64,000 nt of DNA from Collybiopsis luxurians FD-317 M1. Lineage: Eukaryota; Basidiomycota; Agaricomycetes; Agaricales; Omphalotaceae. Below, in pieces: positions 15,497 through 23,859 of the stretch. The stretch's first letter is position 1; each line of letters begins with the position of its first letter. The translations under genes and the position numbers were made by a program. Below the pieces are notes generated by a model. That model saw only the letters and a program-made list of their open reading frames with translations, made no database searches and had not been told where the DNA came from. The stretch is from positions 62,001 to 126,000 of the forward strand of contig KN834787.1 of the NCBI GenBank assembly GCA_000827265.1, given 5' to 3'.

Positions 15497-17861
15497 TCAC
15501 TGTCCCGTCAAGGCGCTTACACTCTCCCAGAAACTAAGTAAGGAATCAAGATCAATATCTAAAATCCAATCTCGTCTACTCACCTACACCGCTCAAGCAA
15601 CCCCGGGTCCGTCATCGTCGAATGAATATCAGTCGTATTACTAACAATAGTCACATTAAACACCATCTCCGTACTGCCATTGGAGAACATCTTCCAAGGT
15701 GGCGTGATATCATCTTTCGGATCGACCTTCTTGTTTGGATCCAAGGAAATTACAAAAGATAGGAAGGATTGCGAGAACGAAGCTTGAAAGGGTGCATTGG
15801 GAACGCTTATTGGGCCTGTGCTTTTCATCAAGTAAACGAAATGAGTTTCTCTCGTGGTTGACCAGGCTGGTATACCGCTTACTGAGGGAAGTAGTAGTAC
15901 CCATCCATTCCATGAAGGGCCGGAGGAATCGCTAGAGTTTTGTTTAAAGTAATTAATAGACAGCGTCTAGGCGCTCAAGTTGCGAGAAAAACGAACCGAA
16001 TTCTCCCTGTTCGTCATTAGTATCACCACTCGATCGGCAAAGAAATTTCTACAAACCTTGAAGACATTGAACCCATGCTCATGGAATGCATTCAGCAGAT
16101 AATAGCTCGGACATTTGAGTATCGCTGGAAAGAAATTACTAGGTACGAGGTATTTTGGGGAACGGAAAGAACAACTCTCACAATCTCCCATAATATTGTT
16201 GATCGCACCCAAGGTAGAACCTCCAACGTTTGCATACTGCTTCGCAACTTCCGCTTTTTGAGCCTGACTGAATTTCGGGAACAGCTCCCCCGCATAGGTC
16301 GCGGTATTCATCACCACACCAGTCTGGTTGACAAAGATCACGCCTTCATTCGTATTGGTAACAGCGAGAAGTGCTTCCCCATTGAATTTTCCTTCTCGAA
16401 GGGCTATGGTCGCTCTCTGCGTAATGAAACTCCCATCAATGACAGGCACAAACTGAACTGTCCCAAAGAATCCAGTATTTTGAATGTTACTGTTGACTTC
16501 ATTCAAAACAGCGACATCAGCGGCTCGAAGACAAGCCAACTGGTCGATCGCGGATGAGCAGCTATGAAGGGTTGAATACCATGAGATAACACCCCCGGGA
16601 GAGCTCAATGGATTGGTACGAACTTGCTTTGCGAAACCACTGCCGAAAAGAGACCCTAAGAGAAAAATGAATCCCAAGAGGTCAGCGTGGGATTGGAAAG
16701 CAATAAGTACCTCAGGGATAGGATCATCGAATGGATATTGCGAAGGCAGGAATGTTGAGCTAGTGATTGCACCTCTGAAGAGTGGCGGTGAGGTTTTGCC
16801 GTCCTGAGCGATTACATGCTGAAGAACAGATCCGGCGCCTAAATATCGGTACAGTGAGACTTTCATAATTCTTCATCCACGCCCAAAGCCATCCCTTACC
16901 CGCCGATTCACCCCAAATAGTGACTTTCTGAGGATCCCCGCCGAATTTTGCAATCTACAAGAAATAAGCTGATGTCTTGTACCTTGAACACCAATTTCTG
17001 GAAAAATACCAACTCACGTTTTTGTGTACCCACTGTAACGCCAAATGCTGGTCCACTGCACCGATACATCAGAATCAGAGCATATCATCCGTGTTTCGGA
17101 AATTTCAACGCACAAAGTCCGGCATTGAGATCTCCATTTTCCTTCACGTCTTTCCCAGCAAGGAAACCTGTCCGGTATTCTGACTTTATGGGAGTCCACC
17201 GACCTACTGACAAAAGCACGTACCGAAGAGACCTAATCGGTATTGTATAACGACAGCGATCACTTCATTTTTAGCCTCTTGAAGAAGATCTGATCCAAAA
17301 TAGGACGATCCATTTCCCCCGAAATATCCTCCGCCATGGATCCAAACCTACAAGCGAGTTTCGTTCATTCAATGACTAATCAAAGAAGCGACCCTTGACG
17401 AGATACGTACGACGGTAGGAAGAGAAGGCGTCGGAGAAATACTCCTTCCAGGTACAGTAACACTATACGGGTTGCGTCACACTCCGGAAATTCCACAAGC
17501 AAAGCTACATACCTGAGAAAGAGACAATCCTCCGAATCTGTAGGCAGACCTTGAACACACTCCGGCGGCTCTTTGTCGGCTACTTGTAATCCATTGATAT
17601 GTGGAGGAGGTTGGGGAGCTCGAAAGCGCAATTGACCTGATTACATCGATTGAGATGCAATTCGATAAGGAGACCAGAAGAAAAATGCTAACCAGTCGGA
17701 GCCGCCGCATATCTTATACCCAAGAAGTTCGTCACATCGGTATTTGGGTCAAATACCCCCTCGTATTGCGCATTACCTACATTTACGATAGGGGCTTGGG
17801 TAGGTGCAGCTAAACTTGACGCTGCGAGTGCAGCAAGCAGCAAGAGTCCTGGCTTGAACAT
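15497..17861 (-). CDS. Secreted type-B carboxylesterase, copy A
   Basis: Alpha/beta hydrolase of the carboxylesterase/lipase family, acting outside the cell on ester bonds. From ATG 17861 a signal peptide (FKPGLLLLAALAASSLAAP) leads into the family N-terminus (VGNAQYEGVFDPNTDVTNFLG, LRFRAPQPPP, SEDCLFL). The oxyanion segment VWIHGGG, the nucleophile elbow WGESAG (its codon split by an intron near 16895), the acidic residue in TNTNEGV and the histidine in ALHGMDGYYYFPQ (about 15915) are all present. The last short exon ends WESVSALTGQ with TGA at 15499-15497. No inactivating change is seen. It shares a shortened signal peptide with copy D, and kinase-gene sequence follows both. Confidence 0.8.
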
Positions 17862-18900: not shown

Positions 18901-19834
18901 GTTGATATTTTATTTGAGTTACATACAACTCAAACACTACTGCTGTATTCTGTCCGTACAAAATTGATATCCAACCCGTCGACTTTCAAGGCGCTCCCTA
19001 GAAGAAGCAACGGAGATAGTAGATCCTTCATATTTGTAAAGTCATGTAAAATACACAATGATTGTAGGTTGCCGACTTTGCAACATTGCCATTAACTGCA
19101 TTGAATTCACCTCCTTCAATTATGAACGCTTCACTTCCAGAAAAAATACTTGGAGAACCACTGATTACAGGTATGTTATAAAACCGGAAGAATACAGCAA
19201 CTATATTCATACCTGCCAATCTCTCCTTGGCTTCGTAAAGAATCCTCGTAGGCATTCCGCCTACTGTTCGTTTGCAGTTCATGATTCAATTGCTTATCTG
19301 CGGCTGAGGAGCCGGCCACAGATCTACAGCGTGAGGTATATCTTCTTGTGCTAAATCCGTTTCATCGTGAGCTGGAGCTGAGTCACTAGCTTCAAGAGAG
19401 AAACTCACCAATGTCCAGCCATTACCTCTGGTCCTACTTCGACATTCCAAGGGATCTGGAAATTTATAAGTCGAAAAATATTTGGCGGTATGTCGAGCCT
19501 CATGATATCAGTACGAGACACAGGCCTCTGGATAAAGTATATGTTAAATGAATACATTATCATTATTTTCATATTCAGTGCGAACCTTGAGTATCCTGTT
19601 GCGAACATCCTCCTCGGTATAGTATGAGATGAGGTGCAGATCAAGCACCTCAACGTTAATCGCTATCATCTTGGAATCCCGCATGATTTTCCGTGAATGC
19701 TCGAAGGGTGAAATACAAACCTTCTTGATCAGGCCATTAAGCCTGAGATTGCTTCTATTTTGAGGTTTGTACCCTGAAGAGAGTCCTGGTGAGCTGCACT
19801 TCCGTTCAATGGCTGTGCTTACCCTCGGGGCTTC

Positions 19835-20293
19835 GAGCCCCTGCGACAGATATTGTGCACAATTTGACTGGTGCTACCAAATGAATGTTTGTGCACAATC
19901 CTTTGGTCGCACCAGTCGAGGCCACCCTAAAATAGATAAGATCAGATGTAACTACCCTAAACCCTAACCTAACCCTAACCCCTAACCTTTCGCACTTCGC
20001 GCGAGCACCCTGCGGGTGCGCCTAACCCCTACCCCAGCGCGCCTTCGGCACGAGCCTAACCCCTAACCCTAACCATCTAACCACCTAACCACCTACCTGA
20101 CCCCCCGATAGAGCTATTTGTTGGCAATGTCGCAGACAGTTCCCACATGTTAGGGCTAGCTCTGCTAGCCCTAACAGGAACTGCCTGCAACATTGCTTGA
20201 TCTTAGGGCGGTCACCGGTAGTTACCAAAGAATTGTTCACAATTGTTTGTTTGGTAGCACCAAAGATTGTGAACAATAGCTGTGGCATTGGGT
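19835..20293 (+). mobile_element. 459-bp hAT-like miniature element containing telomere-type repeats
   Basis: GGGGCTTC flanks the element at 19827-19834 and 20294-20301, while WOPR copy 2 (about 13221) has a single uninterrupted GGGGCCTC-type site. The two ends align as imperfect inverted repeats over about 65 bp (GACAGATATTGTGCACAAT and GGTGCTACCAAA against CACAGCTATTGTTCACAAT and GGTGCTACCAAA), and each contains a small TTGTGNACAA palindrome. The middle holds CCCTAA-type repeats (19953-19989 and 20054-20100), two GC-rich hairpins, and a hairpin with TTAGGGCTAGC/GCTAGCCCTAA arms (20150-20174). No protein is encoded. Confidence 0.8.
19953..20100 (+). repeat. Interstitial telomere-like repeats (CCCTAA)n
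   Basis: Runs such as CCCTAAACCCTAACCTAACC and CCTAACCCCTAACCCTAACC are variants of the TTAGGG telomere repeat used by basidiomycetes. They lie inside the 459-bp element and are separated by two short GC-rich hairpins (about 19990-20050). The second run degrades into CTAACCAC units. This is not a chromosome end, because unique genes continue on both sides. Confidence 0.85.
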
Positions 20294-20724
20294 GGGGCTT
20301 CCTCGGTTACTTTCATTTTGATTCATCTCTCGGTAAACCTGTAGAATCAACTTGCCATTAGGGTTCAAAAACTCCAATTGATGTACATTTCCACACAGGC
20401 CAGTGGCACCTACAAGAAACTTTCCAACAATACAAGGTTGAGACCACGAGACTCATCACGATCTGCAAAGTAATAAGTGTCATAATCATTCGTATATGCA
20501 TGTGCCATACCTGTCCACTGCTTGATACAACTTTCTTCAACGTTGAGAATGAAAACAGCTCCACTTTTAATTGAGGATTTTTTCCCTACGCCATTCAAGG
20601 GACATGTTGTACCAGGCAGAACACCTCGATGGGCGGCGTAAACCAGGTGTAGAGCATCCACTGGTCTTTCTACGTAACCACAAAAGGGAGGAGGGACGTC
20701 TGTAAGACAAGAGTCGCCGGTCAT

Positions 20725-21396
20725 CGCTCAAAGGTGCCCTACTGTCATGTCGTCTTCAGCCGGCGGGTGCGTTACTTAGAGATGTACGCTCGCGCGGCCG
20801 GCAACACACTACATCATTACCGTTTCAACCAAATAACGGTGCCTCGCGTACTATCAACGTCCGGCTATCGTTCACGAGCCTATATCAAACTATGTGGCAC
20901 CTACGCCTGAAAAAACTCAGATCAACATCGTCGTGGGTGGTTACCGGGATACAGCAGGTTATACAGCACCAAACATTCAGCTCATTGCTGCCATACCAAG
21001 TGCTCGAAACGGAGTCATCCCACTGCCTGTCGCTATTGAAACTCGCAGAGAACCATGATTCAGCTTGCAGCGGTACCGGATACGGTCAACCAGTAAGGAT
21101 TGCTCCCACTGAAACAAAACGCACCTATTCCTAAAGAGGAAACGAAAATACCCTCCCGAGATTCTGTACAGTCGTGGTTCAGTGGCCTAATGTAATTTCT
21201 AACATTTCTCATTCATCACGAGCCAATAAGTAGAGAGTATGGATAATATCGGAGATGTAATGTCAGTATGCGCAGTCAATTCAAAGACACACTACCCGAA
21301 CGATTCTCCATCTTACCCGGTAGAAGTTCAAATAGCATTCAATACTCTGCGAGTACTTACAGCGTCCGTGTATCATCTTAATTCCCACATCATTCT
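20725..21396. other. Spacer with remnants of the exon-like array and esterase 3' flank
   Basis: 20890-21080 shows faded copies of the 13.9-15.1 kb units (AAACTCAGATCAACATCGTC and similar). From about 21140 to 21396 it matches the 3' flank of esterases A and C (GAGATTCTGTACAGT, GGTAGAAGT, CAGCGTCCGTGTAT). No gene is seen. Confidence 0.5.
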
Positions 21397-23859
21397 TCAC
21401 TGTCCCGTGAGGGCGCTTACACTCTCCCAGAAGCTAAGTAAAGAATCAAGATCAATATCTAAAATCCAATCTCGTCTACTCACCTACACCGCTCAAGCAA
21501 CCGCGGGTCCGTCATCGTCGAATGAATATCAGTCGTATTCCCAATAGCGGTCACATTAAACACCATCTCCGTATTCCCAATGAAGAACGTCTTCCAAGGC
21601 GGCGTGATATCATCTTTTGGATCGACCTTATCATTTGGATTCAAGGAAATCACAAAAGATAGGAATGATTGCGAGAACGAAGCTTGAAAGGATGCATTAG
21701 GGAAGCTTACTGGGCCTCTGCTACATTTGATCAAGAAAATGAAATGAGATTCTTTCGTGGTTGACTATACCGCTGCTTACTGAGGGAAGTAGTAGTTCAC
21801 ATCCATTCCGTGAAGGGCCGGAGGAATCGCTAAGGTTGTTTTATAAGGAGATCAGTGAACATCGTCCAAGTGTTCAAGTTGCAAGAAAAACAAACCAAAT
21901 TCTCCCTGTTCGTCATTAGTATCACAACTCGATTGGCAAAGAAACTTCTACAAACCTTGAAGACATTAAACCCACGCTCACGGAATGCATTCAGTAAATA
22001 ATAGCTTGGACATTTGAATATCGCTGCAAAAAGAGGTTATTACTAGGAACTAAGTGTTTTGAGGGACGAAATGAACGAATCTCACAATCTCCCATAATAT
22101 CGATGATCGCACCCAAGGTAGAACCTCCAACATTTGCATACTGCTTCGCAACTTCCGCTTCTTGAGCCTGACCGAATTTTGGGAACAGCTCTCCTGCATA
22201 AGTGGCGGTATTCATTACCACACCGGGGTGGACAAAGTCTACGCCTTCATTCGTATTGGTAACAGCGAGAAGTGCCTCCCCGTTGAATTTTCCTTCTCGA
22301 AGTGCTATGGTTGCTCTCTGCGTAATGAAACTTCCATCGATGACAGGCACAAACTGATATGTCCCAGAAAATCCAGTATTTTGAATGTTGCTGTTGACTT
22401 CATTCAAAACAGCAACATCAATAGCTCGAAGACAAGCCAACTGGTCGATCGCAGATGAGCAGCTATGAAGGATTGAATGCCATGAGATAATACCCCCGAG
22501 AGAGTTCAATGAATCAGTACGAACTTGCTTTGCGAAACCACTGCCGAAAAGAGACCCTAAGAGGAGAATGAATTCCAGGATATCAGCGTGAGATTGGAAA
22601 GGAAGATGTACCTCAGGTATAGGATCATCGAAAGGATATTGCGAGGGCAAGAATGTTGAGCTAGTTATTGCACCTCTGAAGAGTGGCGGCAAGGTTTTGC
22701 CGTCCTGAGCGATTACATGCTGAAGAACAGATCCAGCACCTAAATATCGGTACGATAAGACATTCATAATCCACGTCCAAACCCATCCCTTACCTGCCGA
22801 TTCACCCCAAATGGTGACTTTTTGAGGATCTCCGCCGAATTTTGCAATCTACAGAAATAAGCCGATGGCTGTTGTCATAGAGAACAATTTCTGGAAAAAG
22901 CTCAGCTCACATTTTTGTGAACCCATTGTAAGGCTAAGTGCTGGTCCACTGCATCGATATGTCAGAGTTAGAGAATATCATCCTACTCAAGTTTTGAAAA
23001 TTTCAACGCACAGAGTCCCGCATTGAGATCGCCATTTTCCTTCACGTCTTTCCCAGCAAGGAAACCTGACCAGTATTCTGATTTGGTGGAGGTTCTGCGA
23101 CTCACTGCTGAAAACACGTACCGAGGAGACCCAGTCGGTATTGTATAACGACAGCGACTATTTCATTTTTGGCCTCCTGAACAAGATCTGATCCAGGATA
23201 GGGCGATCCACTTCCGTCGAAATATCTAGCTCAGTTCAGTTTTAGTTTATCATCAGAATCGAGTGCGACATGCCCTCCGCCATGGATCCAAACCTAAAAG
23301 CAACATACATTCATTCAATGATTGATGAAAAAAGTGACCCCTAACGAGATACGTACGACAGTAGGAAGAGAGGGCCTGGCGGAAATACCCATTCCAGGTA
23401 TAGCAACACTATACGCAGACAGAGAAAACCAGGTTGCGTCATACTCTGGAAGATCCACAAGTAAAGCTATATACCTGAGAAAGAGACAATCCTCCGAATC
23501 TGTAGGTAGGCCTTGAACACACTCCGGTGGCTCTGTATCGGCTACTTGTACTCCATTAATTTGCGGAGGAGGTTGAGGAGCTCGAAAGCGCAATTGACCT
23601 GATTACAATGATTGAGATTCAATTCGATCAATGCCACGGTTCAGCGAAGGAGACCTGAAGAGAAATACTAACCAGTCGGAGCTGCCGCATATCTCATACC
23701 CAAAAAGTTCGTCACATTGGTATTTGGGTCAAACACCCCCTGGTATTGCGCATTACCTACATCTACGATAGGAGCTTGGGTAGGTGCAGCTAAACTCGAC
23801 GCTGCGAGTGCAGCAAGATATGGTAACAACCCAAGCAGCAAGAGTCCTGGCTTGAACAT
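21397..23859 (-). CDS. Secreted type-B carboxylesterase, copy B
   Basis: ATG at 23859 starts a signal peptide six codons longer than in copies A and D (LLLLGLLPYLAALAASSLAAP). The rest follows the family: FRAPQPPP, CVQGLPTDSEDCLFL, the GESAG elbow near 22795, a TNTNEG acidic site near 22250, an HGMDVNYYFP histidine near 21800 and a last exon ending at a TGA at 21399-21397. A one-codon deletion changes the segment after NEG. No frame break is seen. Its 5' half (23859 down to 22619) is repeated exactly in copy C. Confidence 0.8.

Follow-up and report, generated by a model that had tools for sequence, protein, structure and literature searches.

The element described here lies in a window of 64,000 nucleotides (the whole stretch of Collybiopsis luxurians DNA that was analysed). 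By its copies, target duplications and terminal inverted repeats it belongs to a non-autonomous, MITE-like family of DNA transposons, F1, and its telomere-repeat core is a module common to several element families, which is a new observation. We regard it as probable that F1 is a MITE-like family, likely moved by a KDZ transposase, that carries a telomere-mimic module inherited from captured telomeric DNA. Under this explanation, F1 would be a cut-and-paste transposon that makes 7-bp target duplications through a KDZ (Kyakuja-like) transposase, and its interior would be an inherited module in which a 73-nt hairpin with a TTAGGG-type apex is followed by a TTAGGG/TTAGGGG tract of fixed polarity with small GC hairpins. 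Telomeric DNA would have been captured by an ancestor of several families, which is the simplest origin, and then carried along and dispersed, and the module would supply most of the assignable interstitial telomere sequence of the genome.

The original prediction described an element with inverted ends around a core of CCCTAA-type repeats and hairpins, and both parts of this description are borne out. Element positions 8-73 and 390-453 form inverted ends with 79% identity over 66 bp, the outermost 7 bases being without a match, and the 39-nt arms of the window element are 82% complementary. Each end carries two palindromic ATTGTKMACAAT-type motifs in its inverted arm, and the stretch between the two left-arm motifs is gone in some F1 copies. 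The core consists of CCCTAA/CCCCTAA runs, small GC hairpins and one 33-bp hairpin; folded as DNA, it has z-scores of -7.07 (plus strand) and -7.02 (minus strand), and none of 200 shuffles was equally stable. The target duplication had been given as an exact 8 bp. An exact 8-bp GGGGCTTC repeat is indeed present at both flanks, but with the family-wide ends the duplication is the 7-bp GGGCTTC: the base that follows TTGGGT is nearly always G across the family, and in other F1 copies the left flank varies at the matching position. This G is therefore part of the element, which ends at 20294. The features of the locus are as follows.

19828..19834: left target-site duplication, GGGCTTC
19835..20294, plus strand: F1 element, GAGCCCC...TTGGGTG, with family-wide ends, one base beyond 19835-20293
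19842..19907, plus strand: left inverted arm, matching the right arm over 66 bp with 79% identity
19852..19863: palindromic motif ATTGTGCACAAT, from the sequence
19889..19899: palindromic motif TTGTGCACAAT of the left arm
19955..20097, minus strand: telomere-like tract of TTAGGG/TTAGGGG units with GC hairpins within, degenerate nearing 20097
19991..20003: small GC hairpin 1, loop TTC, inverted in some copies
20005..20019: small GC hairpin 2, GCACCC/GGGTGC, aligned with F3
20037..20055: small GC hairpin 3, loop inverted in some copies
20124..20196, minus strand: conserved 73-nt hairpin with a 33-bp stem and a 4-nt bulge
20150..20174: hairpin apex, TTAGGGCTAGC-loop-GCTAGCCCTAA, at 36 genome places versus 0 in the control
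20224..20287, plus strand: right inverted arm, pairing with the left arm
20232..20243: motif ATTGTTCACAAT of the right arm, from the sequence
20266..20277: motif ATTGTGAACAAT of the right arm, from the sequence
20295..20301: right target-site duplication, GGGCTTC
20410..20727, minus strand: neighbouring WOPR (Gti1/Pac2) ORF outside the element, PF09729, E=1.7e-9

The comparison genome comprised 64.3 Mb in 200 contigs. Forty candidates were scored with the whole element, and extra F1 copies were found through searches with each end and with short end patterns. Dozens of full-length copies with 78-98% identity to the window element were present, and F1 occupies at least 60 dispersed places when fragments are counted. 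Both ends were read in 57 copies, which displayed an exact 7-bp target duplication in 35 cases, one of the same length with a single mismatch in 12 and an exact 8-bp duplication in 2; a convincing duplication was absent from the remaining 8. No strong target-site motif was seen among the 35 duplications. A 14-base F1 end pattern had 39 exact matches in the genome, against ~0.5 expected by chance in our own arithmetic. Some pairs of copies, such as L013 and L014, are identical across the aligned columns, which suggests recent movement. No autonomous copy with both F1 ends appeared among the end-pattern matches listed (for one pattern, the first 100 of 178). Subtelomeric clustering was considered and rejected: 10 of 60 positions were no more than 50 kb from the end of a contig, a zone that makes up at most 31% of the genome.

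Partial and compound copies were also recorded. Only the left end was found at six places (C19, C21, C31:582779, C62, C83 and C112) and only the right end at six others, including C64:263045, C76, C9:367734, C21:739765 and C57:302834, while in L080, L122 and L124 F1 left ends are fused to other sequence. L095 (3395-4595) and L119 contain inserts of ~0.8 and 1.2 kb within the F1 core, with inverted-looking ends, which appear nested by eye. In L016, a full F1 copy at positions 501-1388 (C36:194350-195237) is accompanied by a partial one, both oriented alike and with an identical right end.

The telomere repeats are an integral part of the mobile unit that spread them, as had been proposed. The original prediction allowed that no other copy might carry both the ends and the repeats; in fact, of the 52 copies that were aligned with both ends, 51 contain CCCTAA and 48 have at least three such units, counting those of the apex. 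The core units are also those of the real chromosome ends. At five contig ends the true telomere consists mostly of TTAGGG distally and TTAGGGG proximally, and these are the two unit types of the F1 core; arrays graded from terminal TTAGGG to inner TTAGGGG were seen at the contig ends L110, L111, L112, L098 and L113.

The exact (CCCTAA)3 pattern had 33 matches in the genome, versus 2 for the reversed pattern. Apart from the matches at the five contig ends, these form eight interstitial loci, of which six lie in F1 and two in F2, a related family described below. A looser three-unit pattern gave 294 matches, versus 2 in the control, and the 100 of these that were listed make up 41 interstitial clusters. 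Thirty-one of the 41 have an F1 place no more than 500 bases away (for two of them an apex or end motif is its only sign), while among these listed matches a further 2 clusters are F3-like and 8 are without an assignment. One of these 8, at C16:725474, looks like an F2 tract by eye; the other seven lie at C8:883304, C10:1121282, C13:252260, C16:167081, C20:151034, C23:497221 and C23:663165. Interstitial telomere sequences are commonly taken for scars of fusion or break repair. Since the assignable sites here are carried by transposons (all 8 of the exact loci, and 33 of 41 clusters among the matches listed), a scar origin is not to be assumed.

A 73-76-nt hairpin with the base GCAATGT/ACATTGC and a TTAGGG-type apex, together with TTAGGG units on the same strand, was found in F2, F3 and F4 as well as in F1. 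Five representatives exhibited the order GCAATGT-stem-apex-stem-ACATTGCCAA followed by TTAGGG units on the same strand, and the base, apex and tract polarity were alike in all five. F2, which comprises both non-F1 (CCCTAA)3 places, has its own subterminal palindromes of the ACTTGCAATAGCAAGT type with a hairpin and tract as in F1; its copy L052 shows by eye a plausible 7-bp duplication with one mismatch, and none was recognised in L074. The end pattern GAGC-N10-GATATTGT is, again by eye, common to F1 and F2. A query with the F2 core matched F1 copies with E-values of 1e-11 to 1e-8, and a query with the F3 core matched F1 and F2 places. F3 (at C132) and F4 (at C62) are both defined by their cores alone. 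The small GC hairpins of the tract align between F1 and F3 with 43 of 56 positions identical, and by eye GCACCC/GGGTGC in F1 corresponds to GCAGCC/GGCTGC in F3. Five places (C62:219192, C47:98823, C34:202897, C13:411494 and C8:1023818) match the F3 core with equal score and may represent a young F4 family; the C62 copy, read in part, has the apex GTTAGGGTTAGC.

Pairing in the hairpin stem was assessed in a set of 12 hairpins (six from F1, three from F2, two from F3 and one from F4), for which three partly deleted F2 rows of a 14-row set were left out. In the 12-hairpin set 88.6% of cells pair, and both-side changes occur in 23 cells, compared with 9.5 +/- 2.2 in shuffled data (0 of 500 shuffles as high) and 1-7 when slid. 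The 14-row set gave 85.7% pairing and 27 both-side cells, compared with 13.5 +/- 2.9 (0 of 500). Counted by position, 9 pairs changed on both sides in the smaller set (8 of 500 shuffles as high) and 7 in the larger (244 of 500); further pair types numbered 20 (149 of 500) and 21 (308 of 500), respectively. These last two measures are thus little or no better than in shuffles, while the number of compensated cells exceeds every shuffle. The presence of the module in F1 to F4 with compensatory stem changes indicates that the tract is old and is not a late repair scar at the window locus.

Stem compensation by itself is no proof of selection, because the palindromes are readily flipped or lost. 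A tree of 49 F1 copies was computed from 258 columns that lie outside the core and is weak, with 5 of 42 inner branches starred; on it the loop of the apex switched between AGA and TCT at least six times, and three hairpin blocks recognised by simple text patterns underwent 10, 9 and 14 state changes. Among 52 copies the apex loop reads AGA in 21, TCT in 10 and otherwise in 2, and 19 have none intact; one or more hairpin blocks are missing from many F1 copies, and these blocks are evidently dispensable. The arms of a hairpin may correct each other without selection.

The module could accordingly be functionless, telomeric DNA having been captured once in an ancestral element, when gap repair was aborted or telomerase acted on an excision break, and passively handed down thereafter, with the likeness of the stems due to descent and palindrome self-correction. 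We consider this account quite plausible, though short of probable. The loop flips and hairpin-block changes fit palindromes that are unstable, correctable or lost, and parts of the F1 tract have changed towards ATCTAACC-type units. What argues against it is that cores which can hardly be aligned elsewhere still have the base, the apex and the polarity of the tract in common. In a typical MITE the ends are the part expected to be conserved.

As for what the module does, binding of telomere proteins or DNA folding is a guess. With less confidence than we attach to its origin by telomere capture, we infer that the module has been kept through DNA folding and/or host TTAGGG-binding proteins; it might aid end pairing, replication or a chromatin state. 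A more specific version, in which a selected telomere-mimic module recruits telomere-binding proteins or telomerase, for example protecting or pairing excised ends or setting the chromatin state, and has persisted while the lineage diverged into four or more core types, is put forward tentatively and seems to us rather doubtful. A telomere-like hairpin common to several mobile families makes the use of telomere proteins by transposons testable, and it would scatter binding sites for such proteins among genes.

The F1 apex had no match in prokaryote or viral contigs. Four prokaryote or viral matches to the TTAGGGTTAGC apex were rejected as unrelated to the module, since they lack the GCAATGT/ACATTGC base within 120 bases and have at most one double telomere unit per locus. 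MITEs with tandem repeats or microsatellites in the core, such as Xenopus Xstir, insect (GTCY)n and bivalve elements, are listed in the references and tables of PMC6947457; like F1 they are short and non-autonomous and spread an internal repeat, whereas the repeat in F1 is the host telomere unit and stands beside a hairpin common to several families. No description of a telomere-repeat-carrying MITE in fungi was found among the papers listed from openly licensed PMC text, judged by titles and the openings of abstracts.

The mobiliser had been expected to be a hAT element; a canonical hAT is not supported. The 8-bp duplication of canonical hATs occurs in 2 of 57 copies and most have 7 bp, and a KDZ transposase gene is the one coding gene for which a matching 3′ terminus came to light. 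The genome has 96 KDZ-domain matches. The gene concerned, on contig C7, contains CxC2 and KDZ domain pieces and is degraded; its last large ORF is followed, at a distance of ~0.5 kb, by AATTGTGGCATTGGGTG, 17 bases of which equal the terminus of one F1 subfamily, and the window copy is alike at 13 bases, a match too weak for BLAST by itself (E=0.07). A left end and a duplication were looked for at this locus and not found, and the match is thus one of the 3′ end alone. Judged from the 7-bp duplications and this one degraded gene, a KDZ (Kyakuja-like) transposase is likelier than a canonical hAT to have mobilised F1. Kyakuja elements of Agaricomycetes, as described in PMC12730594, make 7-bp duplications and have CA..TG ends without terminal inverted repeats. 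F1 resembles them in its 7-bp duplications and its 3′ terminal TG but is non-coding and has GAG..GTG ends with inverted arms; for this reason we do not file F1 as Kyakuja, though mobilisation by a KDZ transposase is likely.

Movement of F1 by a hAT7-like hAT transposase, and not by KDZ, appears unlikely. The hAT7 elements of rust fungi make 7-bp duplications, according to PMC12730594, as F1 does, and the duplication of the window copy reads as 8 bp by chance. Against this stands the KDZ gene on C7, no other coding gene with a like terminus having come to light, a weak point in that genes were sought by their KDZ domain.

That the host telomerase RNA gene gave rise to the hairpin next to the tract seems to us very improbable. 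In vertebrates, fragments of telomerase RNA do occur alongside telomere repeats (PMC8537989), and vertebrate ITSs and TERC-ITSs resemble F1 in having internal telomere repeats, sometimes beside a structured fragment. Both are presented there as independent break-repair insertions, and spread of TERC-ITSs by transposons is ruled out by the authors; at the sites examined here the situation is the opposite, a transposon lineage carrying the telomere repeats. Even with E-values as high as 5 allowed, Rfam gave no telomerase RNA for window positions 19700-20450 (agaric telomerase RNA may lack a model), and it gave no known family above the gathering scores, the sub-threshold matches being only miRNA-, snoRNA- and CRISPR-like. 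In vertebrates, interstitial telomeric sequence usually arises by break repair (PMC8537989). As an account of the window locus, with the tract inserted secondarily between unrelated ends, break repair is practically excluded, since the tract, both ends and the 7-bp duplication travel together in dozens of copies, and 51 of the 52 aligned ones have the tract between these same ends. Break repair could be the origin of the tract in the F1 ancestor. These results show that mobile DNA, and not break repair, accounts for the internal telomere sequences examined in this genome.

The original prediction also placed the element in a WOPR exon. A WOPR match does lie nearby, ~116 bp from the element; a position of the element inside an exon is no more than possible. 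Two minus-strand ORFs at 15967-16872 and 21991-22848, by eye very similar type-B carboxylesterases, lie on either side of the WOPR gene and the element and are suggestive of a local duplication. The best relatives of the neighbouring esterase ORF are from agarics (Gymnopus, Marasmius, Moniliophthora, Mycena and others), the top match having 51% identity over 97% of the query. A further minus-strand ORF at 18701-18985 matches a Kdo/WaaP-like kinase (PF06293) only just above the cut-off, with 21.7 bits against 21.3.
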